This document shows positions 3,358 through 18,797 of a stretch of DNA of 36,061 bases, piece by piece. Every line of letters starts with the position of its first letter. Within the stretch, counting starts at the first letter, position 1. The DNA is from Oscillospiraceae bacterium (GTDB taxonomy: Bacteria > Bacillota > Clostridia > Oscillospirales > Oscillospiraceae), in NCBI GenBank assembly GCA_017428565.1, contig JAFRQP010000005.1, positions 1 to 36,061 of the forward strand, read 5' to 3'. A program made the position numbers and the translations under genes. The notes under the pieces were generated by a model. It was given only the letters and a program-made list of their open reading frames with translations. It ran no database searches and was not told where the DNA came from.

Positions 3358-4035
3358 TCACAGCTCCCGGATGATCCTGTCCGCCACCTCCAGGCAGAGG
3401 GCGGAGGTATGGGCCAGGGCGGTGCCGAAGTCCTCGCCCCCCTGGGTCAGCCCGTCGGACACGGTCTTGATGAGCAGGCAGGGCACGCCCGCCCGGTCGC
3501 AGGTCAGCACCACGGCGGCGGCCTCCATCTCGCAGATGTCGGCGCCCCAGCGCGTATGCAGGGCGCTCTTGGCGGCCTCTCCCGCCACAAATTTGTCGCC
3601 GGAGGCGCAGGTGACCCGCTTGAGCTCGGGGCAGAGCGCCGTGGCCTTGTCGATCAGGGCGGGGCTGGGGCGCAAAAACTCGTCCGGATAGCCCATGTAC
3701 TGCCCGGGCAGGCAGTGGTCGTAGGCCACGGTGTCAAAGTCGTAGTGCACCACCTTTTCCACCACGCAGGTTTTGGTCTGGGCCATCTCCTCCGTGAGGC
3801 CTCCCACCACGCCGAAGTTCACGATCAGCTCCACCTCATAGCGGTCCAGCAGCATCTGGGCGGCCGCGGCGGCGGCGATCTCCCCGGCGCCGGAGCGCAG
3901 CACGTAGAGCTCATAGGCGCCCATGTCGTACAGGTGCATCTCAAAGCCGCTGCGCGTCTCCACCCGCTCCGCTTTTCCGTAGCGGCGCAGCACCGCGTCC
4001 ATCTCCACCGCAACCAGCATCCCGATCTTTTTCAT
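3358..4035 (-). CDS. mtnN: 5'-methylthioadenosine/S-adenosylhomocysteine nucleosidase
   Basis: A 225-residue phosphorylase-fold hydrolase that splits adenine from methylthioadenosine, S-adenosylhomocysteine and 5'-deoxyadenosine. The three catalytic positions of the family are visible: Glu11 (VAVEMDAV), Glu171 (CEMEAAAV) and Asp194 (KTVSDG). Length agrees with the family. The ATG at 4035 follows AAAGGAG. It sits directly downstream of mtaB; MtaB is a radical-SAM methylthiotransferase whose by-products (SAH and 5'-deoxyadenosine) are substrates of this enzyme, so the pairing is metabolically sensible. Confidence 0.92.
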   Translation of the reverse strand: MKKIGMLVAVEMDAVLRRYGKAERVETRSGFEMHLYDMGAYELYVLRSGAGEIAAAAAAQMLLDRYEVELIVNFGVVGGLTEEMAQTKTCVVEKVVHYDFDTVAYDHCLPGQYMGYPDEFLRPSPALIDKATALCPELKRVTCASGDKFVAGEAAKSALHTRWGADICEMEAAAVVLTCDRAGVPCLLIKTVSDGLTQGGEDFGTALAHTSALCLEVADRIIREL

Positions 4036-4057
4036 TACAATAACTCCTTTTATCTAT

Positions 4058-4094
4058 CTTCACTCTTCACTTTTCACTCTTCACTTTTCACTTC
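4058..4094. repeat. Short TTCACTCTTCACTTTTCACT repeats
   Basis: Several near-identical copies of TTCACTCT/TTCACTTT lie end to end between mtnN and mtaB and run into the last codons of mtaB, so the MtaB C-terminus (VKSEE) is encoded by the repeat. The same motif recurs at 24711-24779, also between co-transcribed genes. Confidence 0.7.
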
Positions 4095-5366
4095 TCCCAC
4101 GAGTCTCTCCCCGTCCACGCCGGTGATGGTCACGTCCAGGAGCTGCCCCTGCAGGCCCTGCTGCGGCACCTTCACCAGCAGATAGGTGTCGCTGTGGCCC
4201 AGGCTTCCCTCCTCGCCGGTCTCGAAGAGCACGGGCAGGGTCTGCCCCACGCTCGCCTCCAGATAGGCCCGGTGCATCCGCTCGGCAACCTGCTGCGCCT
4301 CATGGGCGCGCTTGGCCTTCACGGCCCGGGTGCACTGGCCGGGCATGGCGTCCGCCGGGGTGCCGGGGCGCCGGGAATAGGGGAAGATGTGCATGGCCGA
4401 AAAGGCGCATTGCTCGATAAAGGCCAGGGTCTCGGCCTGGTCGGCCTCCGTCTCCCCGGGAAAGCCGGTGATGAGGTCGCAGGTCAGCGCGCAGCCGGGG
4501 AAATACTGCCGCAGCAGCGCGCAGCGCTCCAGGAAGAAGGCCGTGTCGTACTTGCGGTTCATGGCCTTCAAAGTCCGGTCACAGCCGGACTGGAGGGACA
4601 GGTGAAAGTGCCGACAGAGCTTTCCCGTGGCGGCCAGGCGGCGGCAGAAATCCTCCGTAATCACCGTGGGCTCCAGGGAGCCAAGGCGGATGCGCATGTC
4701 CCCGGCCTCGACCGCCACGGCCTCGATACAGTCGGCAAGATTGGGCTTTCCCGGCAGATCCACCCCGTAGGAGGCCACCTCGATTCCGGTGAGCACCAGC
4801 TCCCGGTAGCCCTCTGCGCGGATGCGGGCGGTCTCCGCCGCGGCGTCGGCCAGGGGGAGAGAGCGCAGCCGCCCCCGGGTGTAGGGGATGATGCAGTAGG
4901 TGCAGAAGTTCACGCAGCCGTCCTGGATCTTCAGCATGGCCCGGGTGCGGCCCTCCAGGGCACCGGCGGGCAGCTTTTCCAGCGTGCGGCGCCGGAAGGG
5001 CTCGTCGATGCTGCGGGCGCTCTCCCCCGCCGCCACCGCCCTTTCCACCGCGGCCACGAATTCCATCCGGTCCGCCGCGCCGAAGATCACCCCGGCGCCG
5101 ATCTCCTCCGCCTCCTTGGGCTCCAGCTGGGAGTAGCAGCCGCAGACGGCCAGCACCGCGCCGGGGTTCTCGTCCCGCAGGCGGCGCAGGAGCTGCCGGG
5201 ACTTGCGCCCGCTCTCGGCGGTGACGGCGCAGGTGTTCACGATCACCGCGTCGGCCAGCTCCCCGGGGGCGCAGGGCAGGTGCCCGTGCTCCTGGAGCCG
5301 GGCCTCCATGGCCTGGGTCTCAAACTGGTTGACCTTGCAGCCCAAAGTCGATATAATATATTTCAT
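4074..5366 (-). CDS. mtaB: tRNA (t6A37) methylthiotransferase MtaB
   Basis: A 430-residue MiaB/MtaB-family enzyme that adds a methylthio group to t6A37 (making ms2t6A) in tRNAs that read ANN codons. The N-terminal MTTase domain carries Cys10 (TLGCKVNQFE), Cys46 (NTCAVT) and Cys77 (CGCYSQ), ligands of the auxiliary cluster. The radical-SAM CxxxCxxC motif is Cys151, Cys155 and Cys158 (CVNFCTYC). A TRAM-like C-terminus closes the protein. The sequence TLGCKVNQFET is typical of MtaB rather than MiaB. The ATG at 5366 is preceded by GGAGAAT. It is the first gene of the mtaB-mtnN-alaX group and is divergent from a cysteine desulfurase that could supply sulfur. Confidence 0.92.
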   Translation of the reverse strand: MKYIISTLGCKVNQFETQAMEARLQEHGHLPCAPGELADAVIVNTCAVTAESGRKSRQLLRRLRDENPGAVLAVCGCYSQLEPKEAEEIGAGVIFGAADRMEFVAAVERAVAAGESARSIDEPFRRRTLEKLPAGALEGRTRAMLKIQDGCVNFCTYCIIPYTRGRLRSLPLADAAAETARIRAEGYRELVLTGIEVASYGVDLPGKPNLADCIEAVAVEAGDMRIRLGSLEPTVITEDFCRRLAATGKLCRHFHLSLQSGCDRTLKAMNRKYDTAFFLERCALLRQYFPGCALTCDLITGFPGETEADQAETLAFIEQCAFSAMHIFPYSRRPGTPADAMPGQCTRAVKAKRAHEAQQVAERMHRAYLEASVGQTLPVLFETGEEGSLGHSDTYLLVKVPQQGLQGQLLDVTITGVDGERLVGEVKSEE

Positions 5367-5384
5367 CTATCATTCTCCTTGTTT

Positions 5385-5433
5385 CCTCCCCTGCGCAAGG
5401 GGAGGTGCTGAGCGAAGCGAAGCGGAGGGGTCG
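5385..5433. repeat. GC-rich intergenic repeat, short copy
   Basis: CCTCCCC (5385-5391) pairs with GGGGAGG (5399-5405), followed by GCTGAGCGAAGCGAAGCGGA and GGGGTCG. The GAGCGAAGCGA core and the CCTCCCC arms recur at 9478-9600, 27932-28070 and 30546-30653. This copy lies between the divergent mtaB and cysteine desulfurase genes. Confidence 0.65.
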
Positions 5434-5488
5434 TCGCTGCGGCCCGGTTCGCTGCTGTTTTGCTCTCTCTGCAGAGAGGAAGGTTCTT

Positions 5489-6616
5489 ATGCATTATTTG
5501 GACAATTCCGCCACCACGCAGGTCTGCCCCGAGGCGGCGCAGGCCGCGCTCCGGGCGATGACGGAGGTTTACGGCAACCCCAGCTCCACCCACACCCTGG
5601 GGCGGGAGGCGAAGAAGCTGCTGGATCTGAGCCGGAAGCAGGCAGCGGAGGCCCTGGGCTGTGCGCCCGGGGAGCTGGTCTTTACCTCCTGCGGCTCCGA
5701 GAGTGACAACTGGGCCATCCTGAGCGGGGCGGAGGCCATGAAGCGGAAGGGCCGGCACGTGATCTCCTCCCTGGTGGAGCACGACGCCGTGCGCAGGAGC
5801 CTTGACGAGCTGGAAAGTCGGGGCTTCGAGGTCACCCGCCTCAAGCCGGAAAAGGACGGCTCCGTCTCTGTGCAGTCCGTGCTGGACGCTCTGCGGGAGG
5901 ACACGGTGCTGGTGTCGCTGATGCTGGTGAACAACGAGACCGGCGGCGTCACGGACATCGCCGGCGTCTCCCGCGCTCTGAAGGCGGCGGGCTCCCAGGC
6001 TCTGCTGCACAGCGACGCGGTGCAGGGCTTTCTGAAGGTCCCCTTCTCCGCCAAAACGCTGGGGGCGGACCTGATCTCGGTCAGCGGGCACAAGATCCAC
6101 GCGCCCAAGGGTGTGGGGGCCCTGTACATCCGCAGCGGCCTGCGCCTCAAGCCCTTCATCCTGGGCGGAGGGCAGGAGGAGGGCCGCCGGGCCGGCACCG
6201 AGGCTCTGCCCCAGATCGCGGCCTTCGGCGAGGCCTGCCGGGTGGGCAAGGCGGGCATGGCGGAGAATATCGCGCGCATGGCGGCCCTGAAGGCCGAGAC
6301 CCTTGCCCGGCTGCAGCGGGAGATCCCGGAGCTGCGCTGGGTGGATTCCGCGGCGCCCCACATCCTGTCCGTCTCGCTGCCCGGCTGGCGCAGCGAGGTG
6401 CTGATGAACTTCCTGGAGGCCCGGGAGGTCTGCGTATCAAAAAGCTCCGCCTGCAAAAAAGGCGGGCGGAGTCATGTGCTGGAGGCCATCGGGCTGGACG
6501 CCCGGAGCATCGACGGGGCGATCCGCATCGGCCTCTCCCGTCTGACGACGGAGGAGGACGTCGACGCGCTGTGCACCGGGCTCAAGGACGCCCGGGACCG
6601 CCTGGCCCATCGCTGA
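5489..6616 (+). CDS. Cysteine desulfurase (NifS/IscS-like)
   Basis: A 375-residue PLP enzyme that takes sulfur from cysteine for iron-sulfur clusters and tRNA thiolation. Seen in the sequence: N-terminal YLDNSATT, the PLP lysine Lys202 in SGHKIHAPKG, His98 in VEHDAV, the AGTE motif near 235-238 and the active-site Cys322 in SKSSACKKGG. The frame is open further upstream, but ATG at 5489 has AGAGGAAGG in front of it and gives the usual family N-terminus. The position opposite mtaB suggests sulfur supply to methylthiolation, but that link is inference. No IscU scaffold or thiI follows, and the gene ends in a terminator at 6653-6690. Confidence 0.9.
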   Translation: MHYLDNSATTQVCPEAAQAALRAMTEVYGNPSSTHTLGREAKKLLDLSRKQAAEALGCAPGELVFTSCGSESDNWAILSGAEAMKRKGRHVISSLVEHDAVRRSLDELESRGFEVTRLKPEKDGSVSVQSVLDALREDTVLVSLMLVNNETGGVTDIAGVSRALKAAGSQALLHSDAVQGFLKVPFSAKTLGADLISVSGHKIHAPKGVGALYIRSGLRLKPFILGGGQEEGRRAGTEALPQIAAFGEACRVGKAGMAENIARMAALKAETLARLQREIPELRWVDSAAPHILSVSLPGWRSEVLMNFLEAREVCVSKSSACKKGGRSHVLEAIGLDARSIDGAIRIGLSRLTTEEDVDALCTGLKDARDRLAHR

Positions 6617-17285: not shown

Positions 17286-17573
17286 CTATTTCTCCTTGAA
17301 AACGCCGATTCCCGCCAGGAAGGAATAGCCGAACGAAAGGACGCAGAACAGTCCAAAGAGCGCAAACACAAGGGTAAACCAGGTAAACGGCAGGGGAAAC
17401 ACGCGAATCGCGGCCCAGATCCACACCGCCAAGGCCACCGCGCTGCCCACCGTCGGCAGAAATGCGATCACCAGGACGCCTGAGAGCATGACGACATAAG
17501 ACCAGGGAGAGGGAATGGGAAGAAAATAGAAGGGGAAAGCCGCCCCCAGATAAAAAAGATTTTTTTGAAACAT
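17286..17573 (-). CDS. Small membrane protein downstream of the alpha-CTD gene
   Basis: A 95-residue protein that is almost entirely hydrophobic, with three predicted membrane helices (about residues 4-20, 24-52 and 58-90) and a short FKEK tail. The ATG at 17573 has a very strong AGGAGG site six bases upstream. The frame is open much further, but upstream sequence shadows the alpha-CTD gene. It lies 80 bases after that gene in the same direction with no terminator seen between them, so both are probably under the same SAM-type riboswitch. I do not recognise the family. Confidence 0.75.
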   Translation of the reverse strand: MFQKNLFYLGAAFPFYFLPIPSPWSYVVMLSGVLVIAFLPTVGSAVALAVWIWAAIRVFPLPFTWFTLVFALFGLFCVLSFGYSFLAGIGVFKEK

Positions 17574-17653
17574 CGTACCTCCTGTGCCTCCTTTTGCACT
17601 TATCTTCATTTTTAGTTTTGCAGGATACATTTGGGTCGTCCGGGCCTTCCGTC

Positions 17654-18202
17654 TCACGCGTTTCGATCCATCACCTCCTGCCAGTACCGGGCTTTTTCGT
17701 TGGGCGTCAGCAGATAGTAGCAGGCGCTGAAAAAGCAGTGGCGGATCTCCTCTTCGCTCTTGCTGCCCAGATTGCGGACCGCGCGCAGGCCGGTCTCGCT
17801 GCGGATCAGATCCCGGAGCGCCCCGAAGGTATCGGCGCCGGCGCGCATCAGGCAGTTGGACGAGCGGACGGACAGGGACAGCTCGCTGATGGAAAGCCTG
17901 CTCATCCTGGCTTTGCAGGGGATCTCCGCCTGCACGCCGGGAAAACGCTCCCGGAGGAACAGGTAGGCGTCCCGTCTGGCCGCCTCGTCCCGCAGCCGCA
18001 GGGCCTCCTCGCTGACATTCGGCGGGGCCGGCGGCTCGGGAAGGGGCCCGCTCTCCTCCTGCGCCCGGCGCAGGCCCCGCGGTTTCCAGCAGATCCAGAG
18101 CTTCCCCGCCAGATAGTCCCGGTAGGCCCCCTCGTCCAGCCGGAACCAACCCCAATTCGTGCGGACTTCAAAGCTTTCTTCGCGAATAAAAATGCACCTC
18201 AT
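17654..18202 (-). CDS. Free-standing RNA polymerase alpha C-terminal-domain-like protein
   Basis: A 182-residue protein. Residues 102-160 match the DNA-binding C-terminal domain of RNA polymerase alpha (ISELSLSVRSSNCLMRAG, then AVRNLGSKSEEEI). Aligned with Escherichia coli RpoA, its UP-element contact residues are kept: Arg113 (R265), Asn116 (N268), Cys117 (C269), Gly146 (G296), Lys148 (K298), Ser149 (S299) and Glu152 (E302). The N-terminal 40 residues (Trp-rich, NWGWFRLDEGAY) and a charged Pro-rich linker are not part of RpoA, and the assembly domains are absent. The ATG at 18202 follows GGGAG; the longer frame back to 18370 only crosses the riboswitch. It is the first gene behind that riboswitch. 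Likely a DNA-binding regulator; targets unknown. Confidence 0.82.
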   Translation of the reverse strand: MRCIFIREESFEVRTNWGWFRLDEGAYRDYLAGKLWICWKPRGLRRAQEESGPLPEPPAPPNVSEEALRLRDEAARRDAYLFLRERFPGVQAEIPCKARMSRLSISELSLSVRSSNCLMRAGADTFGALRDLIRSETGLRAVRNLGSKSEEEIRHCFFSACYYLLTPNEKARYWQEVMDRNA

Positions 18203-18218
18203 TTCTCTGTACTCCCAG

Positions 18219-18254
18219 AAAAAAAGGCGCAAAAATACCAGTCGCGGGACTGGT
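18219..18254 (-). terminator. Riboswitch expression-platform terminator
   Basis: On the minus strand ACCAGTC, a four-base loop and GACTGGT form a seven-pair stem (18254-18237), followed by ATTTTTGCGCCTTTTTTT. It lies between the SAM-type aptamer and the ribosome binding site of the alpha-CTD gene, as expected for ligand-controlled premature termination. Confidence 0.8.
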
Positions 18255-18259
18255 ATAAA

Positions 18260-18343
18260 CCTATCGTACAAGCTTTGGCACCTTTCTCTCCGGGAGGTTG
18301 CCGTGCGGTCATCGGGCTTGTCCCTCGCGCAACTCTTATAGGG
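18260..18343 (-). ncRNA. SAM-clan riboswitch aptamer (SAM-I or SAM-I/IV variant)
   Basis: The minus strand shows the conserved SAM-clan core in order: AAGAG after helix P1, GAGGGAC, GCCCGATGA, CGGCAACC and AGGTGCCAA. P1 pairs CCTAT (18342-18338) with ATAGG (18264-18260). P2 pairs TGCG with CGCA around the GAGGGA...GCCC part. P3 pairs GGC-ACCT with AGGT-GCC. The usual P4 hairpin of SAM-I after GGTGCCAA appears to be missing, which points to a SAM-IV-like or SAM-I/IV variant. A terminator follows at once. Family identity is from consensus recognition; subclass is uncertain. Confidence 0.85.
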
Positions 18344-18383
18344 TTTTGTTTGGTTGTAAGATTCGTGCACTAATCTTGCTTAG

Positions 18384-18412
18384 ACTATAGCATAAGGCCG
18401 CCGATTTGTCAA
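18384..18412 (-). promoter_or_regulatory. Promoter of the riboswitch-controlled operon
   Basis: On the minus strand TTGACA (18412-18407) and TATAGT (18389-18384) are 17 bases apart. Transcription would start near 18377, just before the aptamer, giving a leader of about 175 nt. Confidence 0.85.
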
Positions 18413-18428
18413 ATTTCGGCCCGATTTC

Positions 18429-18463
18429 GGCAGGAGCCCCGGCGCGGAAACGCGCCGGGCTCC
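18429..18463 (-). terminator. Strong hairpin after the DUF4298 gene
   Basis: CAGGAGCCC-CGGCGCG and CGCGCCGGGCTCCTG form a very GC-rich stem with a GAAA-type loop just past the stop codon at 18504. It lacks a clear T-run on the minus strand, so termination efficiency is uncertain. Confidence 0.6.
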
Positions 18464-18503
18464 TGTGAGAAGGGAAAACCACCTTCGGCTTCCGGTCTCC
18501 CCC

Positions 18504-18797
18504 TTATTCCTCCGTCCAGAGGCGCTCGTTCAGCGCCCGGACCTGATCCAGCAGATTCCAGAGCCCGTCCTCGGAGAGGACGCCGCGCTTGAGCTCCGCG
18601 GGCAGCTCCCCCGCCTCGTCGGCCGCAAAGTCCTCCCGCCAGAGGGGGCTTGCATAGTAGCGGGCCAGGGGCTCCAGGTCCGGCTGGGCCGCCTCCCAGG
18701 CGTCCATCGCCTGCTCCAGCGCCGCCGCCGCGGCCTGCAGGCGATCCATCCGCGCCTCCATCTCCGTAATGCGCTCGATACGATCTTCGTTTTCCAT
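18504..18797 (-). CDS. DUF4298 family protein
   Basis: A 97-residue acidic protein. Residues 1-35 form a coiled-coil-like helix (RIERITEMEARMDRLQAA), followed by RYYASPLWREDFAADEAGEL and KRGVLSEDGLWNLLDQVRAL. This pattern, including the DEAG-LP and L-RGVLSED motifs, is that of the DUF4298 family of small Firmicutes proteins, for which I know no function. The ATG at 18797 follows AGAGGAGGAAC. It is a single gene, with the riboswitch operon downstream in the same direction beyond a hairpin. Confidence 0.8.
   Translation of the reverse strand: MENEDRIERITEMEARMDRLQAAAAALEQAMDAWEAAQPDLEPLARYYASPLWREDFAADEAGELPAELKRGVLSEDGLWNLLDQVRALNERLWTEE

Follow-up and report, generated by a model that had tools for sequence, protein, structure and literature searches.

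The window analysed here, a stretch of 36,061 nt from an Oscillospiraceae bacterium, carries on its minus strand an RNA leader followed by the gene of a 182-aa protein. The leader belongs to a group of 13 distinct leaders with the common P3 sequence CUCCC(G/A)GAGAGAAAGG, termed subgroup A. A DUF4298 protein gene (18504-18797, minus strand) lies directly upstream of the riboswitch promoter. The features of the locus are the following (SD, Shine-Dalgarno):

18384..18412, minus strand: sigma-70-type promoter TTGACA-17-TATAGT (sequence; 11/12 matches in a promoter scan)
18358..18377, minus strand: 5' hairpin AAGATTAGTGCACGAATCTT in the promoter-to-aptamer interval (similar, by eye, in several subgroup A leaders)
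18258..18344, minus strand: compact SAM-I aptamer of 87 nt with P1, P2, P3 and pseudoknot, without P4 (RF00162, 50.7 bits; own model R1, 103.4 bits; covariation)
18278..18296, minus strand: P3 strand CTCCCGGAGAGAAAGGTGC, predicted ON-state partner of the anti-SD (unconstrained fold; duplex -32.2)
18235..18256, minus strand: hairpin ATACCAGTC-CCGC-GACTGGTAT, then a T-run to 18231, predicted in both states (folding; sequence)
18212..18230, minus strand: anti-SD or switching strand GCGCCTTTTTTTCTGGGAG (folding, duplex energies, pairing counts)
18185..18231, minus strand: predicted OFF hairpin 18231-18193, then TTTTTATT (-20.4 kcal/mol; consensus fold)
17654..18202, minus strand: gene of the 182-aa protein with an RNA polymerase alpha-CTD (PF03118 match)
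17286..17573, minus strand: next ORF, 95-aa protein, membrane-type by eye (ORF list)

All motifs quoted in an earlier note on this DNA lie on the minus strand between 18412 and 18184, each where that note had placed it. The promoter it proposed (TTGACA at 18412-18407, TATAGT at 18389-18384, 17-nt spacer) was borne out as the single find, at 11/12, of a scan of 17600-18600 in which shuffled sequences average 0.2. At the other end of the leader, the likely SD sequence GAGGTG (18200-18195) is overlapped by ATG 18202. Several relatives start about 15 nt further downstream (L032 with TTG; L047, L147 and L151 with ATG; and, by eye, L148), and ATT stands at that place in L033 and in the window, at 18187-18185, 7 nt past GAGGTG. 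The alpha-CTD gene may start at this ATT or at ATG 18202. No Pfam match was obtained for the 95-aa protein of the next ORF.

The leader had been described as a SAM-clan riboswitch with its own promoter, and it is one of the SAM-I type. The Rfam SAM-I (S-box) model RF00162 matched 18344-18258 on the minus strand with 50.7 bits (gathering threshold 44.4; E 6.1e-9; model positions 1-108), the sole match in the whole 36-kb window at the gathering threshold of Rfam 15. The earlier note had proposed searching with the SAM-I, SAM-IV and SAM-I/IV models, of which only the first matched: in a permissive scan of 18150-18450 (301 bases) up to E 10, RF00162 was the only SAM-clan match, and a SAM-IV or SAM-I/IV identity was rejected. 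The P2-loop/J3-4 pseudoknot pairs ACAAG 18321-18317 with CTTGT 18272-18268. To follow the pairing in relatives, 17 compact copies, the window included, were aligned (A1) from 21 candidates, leaving out the truncated L034 and L047 as well as L042 and L043, which nearly duplicate L040 and L041. In A1 94.4% of the 425 cells were paired and 13/25 pairs carried double changes, with 0/500 shuffles as high (here and throughout, permutation and shuffle tests ignore relatedness). The covariation that the earlier note wanted tested in homologous leaders is thus present; it spans P1, P2, P3 and the pseudoknot, is destroyed by sliding the partners, and leaves the pseudoknot 100% paired with double changes in 2/4 pairs. 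Our own model, R1, scores the window at 103.4 bits, the window being one of its 17 building sequences.

What distinguishes these copies is the lack of P4, whose place holds three letters or fewer in 154 of the 156 branch copies, the window included, and 15-18 letters in L051 and L138. Subgroup A has, in addition, a J1/2 shorter by one nt and an extra base before P2 (Rfam alignment; 12/15 subgroup rows counted, the other three not being parsed). The binding site was compared with the T. tengcongensis SAM-I structure, where we take A6, U7, C44, A45, A46, G55, G56, U57, G58, A87 and U88 to be the SAM-contact positions. These 11 positions are kept in 138-142 of 142 distinct aptamers (156 aptamer matches, of which 145 were distinct, and 142 after dropping three gap-rich ones). 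The place of G11 holds a G in 127/142, a place not readable from one column because J1/2 differs in length. This retention of the pocket makes SAM the likeliest ligand of the compact branch aptamer. SAM synthetase itself is found behind branch copies in a few places (L234, metK above the NCBIfam cutoff; L040, S-AdoMet_synt_N above the Pfam cutoff).

Alternatively, the fold may have stayed unchanged while subgroup A, with its altered J1/2, came to sense a SAM relative or something else, like the spermidine class. The shortened J1/2 and the extra base before P2 could alter ligand choice, the genes downstream are not SAM genes, and there is a precedent in the SAM-I variants of PMC10853860, which bind spermidine and not SAM. 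We nevertheless hold another ligand to be unlikely: the P3 internal-loop and P1 contact positions, at which the spermidine class differs, are kept; the scanned first-ORF representatives, a set outside which most singletons fell, included no recognisable polyamine gene; and metK lies behind sister copies.

The compact copies form a branch of their own. RF00162 matched in 113/149 related genomes. Of 13 genus copies of 78-82 bits that were inspected, seven stand before metK and two before an ECF transporter (the remaining four, on the minus strand of their loci, were read in the wrong orientation), and a second set, of about 38-68 bits, stands mostly before other genes. R1 tells one kind from the other: across 102 genomes of the genus, at least 70.7 bits was reached by 26 copies from 21 genomes and at most 64.2 by all other matches, and the same gap (at least 76.7 versus at most 60.8 bits) was seen among the matches listed for 300 family genomes. 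In the window's assembly (83.66% complete, 105 contigs) the only RF00162 match is that at 18344-18258. The S-AdoMet synthetase N-terminal domain was likewise not found in this assembly, so the missing ordinary metK S-box is probably due to its incompleteness.

A degenerate core pattern retrieved at least 120 stretches from GTDB genomes and 21 from IMG/VR; R1 matched 80/80 GTDB loci examined (of the at least 120) and 21/21 IMG/VR loci, matches that are near-guaranteed since the pattern was derived from the branch itself. By their titles most of the records come from uncultured Clostridia, many of them of rumen or gut origin, and the few named strains with a compact switch include Ruminococcus bromii YE282, Butyrivibrio sp. 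AC2005 and Succiniclasticum ruminis DSM 9236. Copies also occur on contigs of MAGs titled Synergistes, Bacteroidales and Chloroflexi (L196, L230, L248), perhaps through binning errors or transfer. The branch extends to phages. One copy shares its contig with terminase and portal genes (L170), and another lies among tail and lysis genes (L155); Ruminococcus phage NatCom_28274 (complete genome, PV036439.1) has a copy of 101.4 bits immediately ahead of a hypothetical gene, and the human faecal phage record MT835503.1 one of 85.8 bits. A C5 DNA methyltransferase (dcm over cutoff) adjoins the switch and its small gene in L157 and L163; the coordinates on these IMG/VR contigs are 4347-6581 for L157 and 1336-2115 and 3359-5383 for L163. 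The latter also encodes a ParB/DNA methyltransferase, a terminase small subunit and a protein with a weak likeness to MetK (phrog_1569, function unknown), which at 44 bits stays far under the metK cutoff. Plasmids gave no match to 18180-18420. Paired compact aptamers about 0.2-1 kb apart were observed at three loci (L179, 4118-4206 and 4712-4800; L195, 3370-3457 and 4323-4409; L225, 1213-1299 and 1439-1530).

The genes behind the switch were surveyed by calling the first downstream ORF of 153 leaders, of which 142 had one and 11 had none, and grouping the products by single linkage (counting identical sequences once, 144 leaders and 133 first proteins; L205, L249 and L251, genome-contig copies cut by contig ends, are omitted). 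The largest cluster, 58 of the 142, consists of proteins of about 100 aa and their relatives from bacteria and phages (L170 6348-6647, L157 6574-6867, L328 3001-3297 and others). N-formylglutamate amidohydrolase-like proteins follow with 17/142 (PF05013 tested on L035 only), then alpha-CTD proteins with 10, small proteins of 75-99 aa with seven, proteins of about 140 aa with six, and MetK-like (L040, L042, L234, L240) and weakly MORN-like proteins with four each; three unassigned proteins, six pairs and 21 singletons make up the remainder. Representatives of the 100-aa, 75-aa and 140-aa groups had no Pfam or NCBIfam match (for the 100-aa group, one representative), and an unnamed PHROG was touched by 1/25 members of the group of about 100 aa. 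The ORF calls of L129 and L250 are probably wrong because their leaders resemble that of L127. SAM synthetase is thus a minority target of the compact branch, but it is present. With so many non-SAM genes behind the branch, the locus in the window is not a one-off.

How the window's leader might switch was examined by folding. The free fold of the transcript (-67.1 kcal/mol) pairs the P3 strand with GCGCCUUUUUUUCUGGGAG over 19 bp. When the aptamer pairs are enforced (-64.0 kcal/mol), strand 18230-18212 folds onto the SD region; the two folds are 3 kcal/mol apart, the pseudoknot and ligand energies being in neither. A strand exchange at 18230-18212 is thereby predicted. When SAM is scarce, this strand would pair with P3 strand 18296-18278, the SAM pocket would be lost and the SD sequence would be free (ON). 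When SAM is bound, P3 would form and the strand would instead fold onto the SD region, giving a stable hairpin with U5 behind it (OFF) and hiding GAGGTG 18200-18195 and ATG 18202, so that translation would be blocked and transcription possibly ended too. As it is followed by U5, the modelled OFF hairpin may be an intrinsic terminator besides hiding the SD sequence.

Both states were compared across subgroup A. The ON duplex, -32.2 in the window, ranges from -23.2 to -32.2 in 11/13 leaders and is weaker in L044 (-15.1) and L133 (-17.6). In 12 leaders it averages -25.84, versus -11.07 for shuffled partners; it varies little among leaders, since permuted partners give -25.54 and 50/2000 permutations were as low. 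A hand-anchored count in 11 leaders (L044 and L133 left out) found 141/143 cells paired at 13 end positions, the middle six being excluded, with one pair double-changed (A-U versus G-C) and one-sided changes at two others. The OFF hairpin (-20.4 kcal/mol in the window) ranges from -18.3 to -20.9 in 8/12 leaders and is weak in the other four (L038, -7.6; L044, -6.5; L162, -8.7; L133, -11.6). A consensus fold of nine leaders, selected for having this hairpin, showed double changes in 3/14 pairs and four pairs broken in some rows.

The stem-loop with a T-run that the earlier note placed just before the ribosome binding site does exist, at 18256-18235, but the anti-SD stretch separates it from the SD sequence. 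It was implied there to be the switching element, which it probably is not because it is predicted with and without the aptamer, in the free and in the enforced fold. Classic S-box attenuation, in which SAM would make this hairpin terminate transcription as that note implied, fits a stem and T-run directly after P1. It also fits the branch members outside subgroup A, in which pairing between the P1 3' strand and the sequence after it reaches -14.43 versus -11.07 for permuted partners (0/5000; 108 leaders). Within subgroup A, however, the P1 3' strand is unspecific there and was rejected as an antiterminator (-7.96 versus -7.83 permuted, 750/2000, 12 leaders). The hairpin forms whether or not the aptamer does, and it is absent from the output of a simple terminator scan of 17600-18600, which reported no terminator, neither this hairpin nor the OFF hairpin. 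For the window we therefore consider attenuation at 18256-18235 decidedly unlikely.

In many leaders of the wider branch a motif like GCGCUCUUUAUGG follows the first hairpin and shows complementarity to the aptamer 5' strand (P1, J1/2 and P2), with -16.44 versus -14.26 kcal/mol for permuted partners (0/5000; 119 leaders) and -10.83 for a control with an unrelated aptamer stretch. This pairing reflects largely common sequence, not covariation: the fractions at -10 or lower are 0.88, 0.84 and 0.55 for own, swapped and shuffled combinations, respectively (144 leaders), and only 34% of 119 leaders have their own partner among the best tenth. The same anti-SD motif pairs with the SD region at -12.93, versus -6.50 for shuffled targets (117 leaders). 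Combined with the pairing of the P1 3' strand, these complementarities suggest that transcription and translation are both controlled in the wider branch. Exceptions among the 60 leaders listed are L038, L044, L134, L193, L200 and L238, whose SD pairing is no better than that of shuffles; L129 and L250 pair weakly with the aptamer 5' strand. The P3 region was rejected as switching partner in the rest of the branch (-13.47 versus -13.69 permuted, 1741/2000).

The first gene had been called alpha-CTD-like, and residues 102-155 of the 182-aa protein do match PF03118 (2.8e-13; 49.8 bits, cutoff 23.8); NCBIfam gave rpoA models only, far under their cutoffs. R113, N116, G146, K148, S149 and E152, which we take to be the DNA-contact residues of the E. 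coli-type alpha-CTD, are invariant in the eight sequences of alignment A5 (window included), and the N-terminal region of about 95 aa is also conserved among these relatives. By eye this region had seemed homologous to the family of about 100 aa, an idea rejected by hhalign (probability 0.4%).

Among the 13 distinct leaders of subgroup A, 10 are followed by an alpha-CTD gene. The arrangement occurs in four genera (g1, g123, g127 and g145), and the link between switch and gene is therefore not the accident of one genome. Of the remaining leaders, L038 and L044 precede other genes and L045 has no called ORF; the first protein of L038 is, by eye, presumably 2'-5' RNA ligase-like, and that of L044 is unassigned. 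Starting from the protein, 85/102 genus genomes gave a match, mostly via the CTD alone as rpoA would, and in seven of the 102 the match reached query residue 77 or lower. The switch is present in five of these seven (G000, G028, G002, G052 and G151, the copy of G052 being cut by a contig end); it is absent at the alpha-CTD gene of G051, and G060, whose gene is broken, is also without it. Among 400 family genomes, 32 matched the protein at 1e-12, and all four full-length matches (G000, the window's own, G311, G313 and G326) carry the switch, as does the shorter G242; G310 is not included in this count. At L140, about 2200-2410, the gene of G051 is preceded by a different leader, which begins after a promoter-like site and may contain a terminator; in Rfam this leader gave only a sub-threshold match to L31-Firmicutes (21.5 bits, cutoff 33.3). 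IMG/VR, when scanned, yielded a single alpha-CTD relative; it is flanked to one side by genes for an S24-peptidase protein, a UmuC-type polymerase and helicase/AAA proteins and to the other by an ADP-ribosylglycohydrolase gene. That the leader is a relic, once in front of a met gene and stranded by rearrangement before an unrelated one with its function lost, would suit the leaders before other genes or no called ORF (L038, L044, L045) but is very improbable, as aptamer, anti-SD and gene are conserved together across four genera and pocket positions and pairing are kept.

Combined, these results identify the element of the window as a member of a compact, P4-less branch of SAM-I, most likely one that responds to SAM by switching off a stand-alone RNA polymerase alpha-CTD protein, a reading to which we give a probability of about 0.68. 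The protein, made at low SAM, would contact promoter DNA or RNA polymerase, and might, as the earlier note proposed, spread the SAM signal to other genes. Of that note, the SAM-clan riboswitch in front of an alpha-CTD gene thus stands, and its stem-loop is probably not the switch. If the reading is true, a large branch controls orphan, RNA polymerase-like DNA-binding and phage genes, making SAM a more general signal, and the compact switch offers a way into the study of several small, functionally uncharacterised protein families. More speculatively, and in its entirety improbable, the branch might be a SAM-sensing regulon apart from methionine supply, common to gut Clostridia and their phages, in which low SAM, drained for instance by phage DNA methylation, turns on small accessory proteins, among them an alpha-CTD retuning host transcription; in the alpha-CTD subgroup, the SAM-pocket strand P3 would be both antiterminator and anti-anti-SD strand. 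A literature search covering mostly titles and abstract openings, with few subscription journals, yielded no description of the compact branch.

SAM-I is among the best-studied riboswitches, and to our knowledge the targets described for it serve almost exclusively the synthesis or uptake of SAM, methionine or cysteine. With the SAM-I of RF00162 the window and its branch share P1, P2, P3, the P2-loop/J3-4 pseudoknot, the pocket positions and a score above gathering. They differ in the 87-nt length of the window aptamer, in the lack of the P4 stem of the four-way junction in 154/156 copies and in standing before non-SAM genes. The competing strand also differs, being predicted in subgroup A to pair with P3 and not with P1; the pairing data favour a P1 3'-strand antiterminator in the rest of the branch and not in subgroup A. 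SAM-IV also lacks P4, and SAM-IV and SAM-I/IV have the SAM-clan core in common with the window, but it matches neither model at E<=10. According to PMC7270179, the SAM-I riboswitch of the Xanthomonas met operon acts on translation through an anti-SD hairpin, with no Rho-independent terminator reported; the aptamer type and, by prediction, the anti-SD hairpin are in common with the window, whereas the Xanthomonas element controls a methionine operon and that of the window precedes an alpha-CTD gene. The spermidine riboswitch is a SAM-I variant reported in PMC10853860 from 13 copies before polyamine genes, which rejects SAM and has changes in J1/2 and the P3 internal loop. Like the compact branch it places a SAM-I fold before genes outside SAM synthesis; it alters the SAM-contact bases of the P3 internal loop, and the compact branch keeps them.
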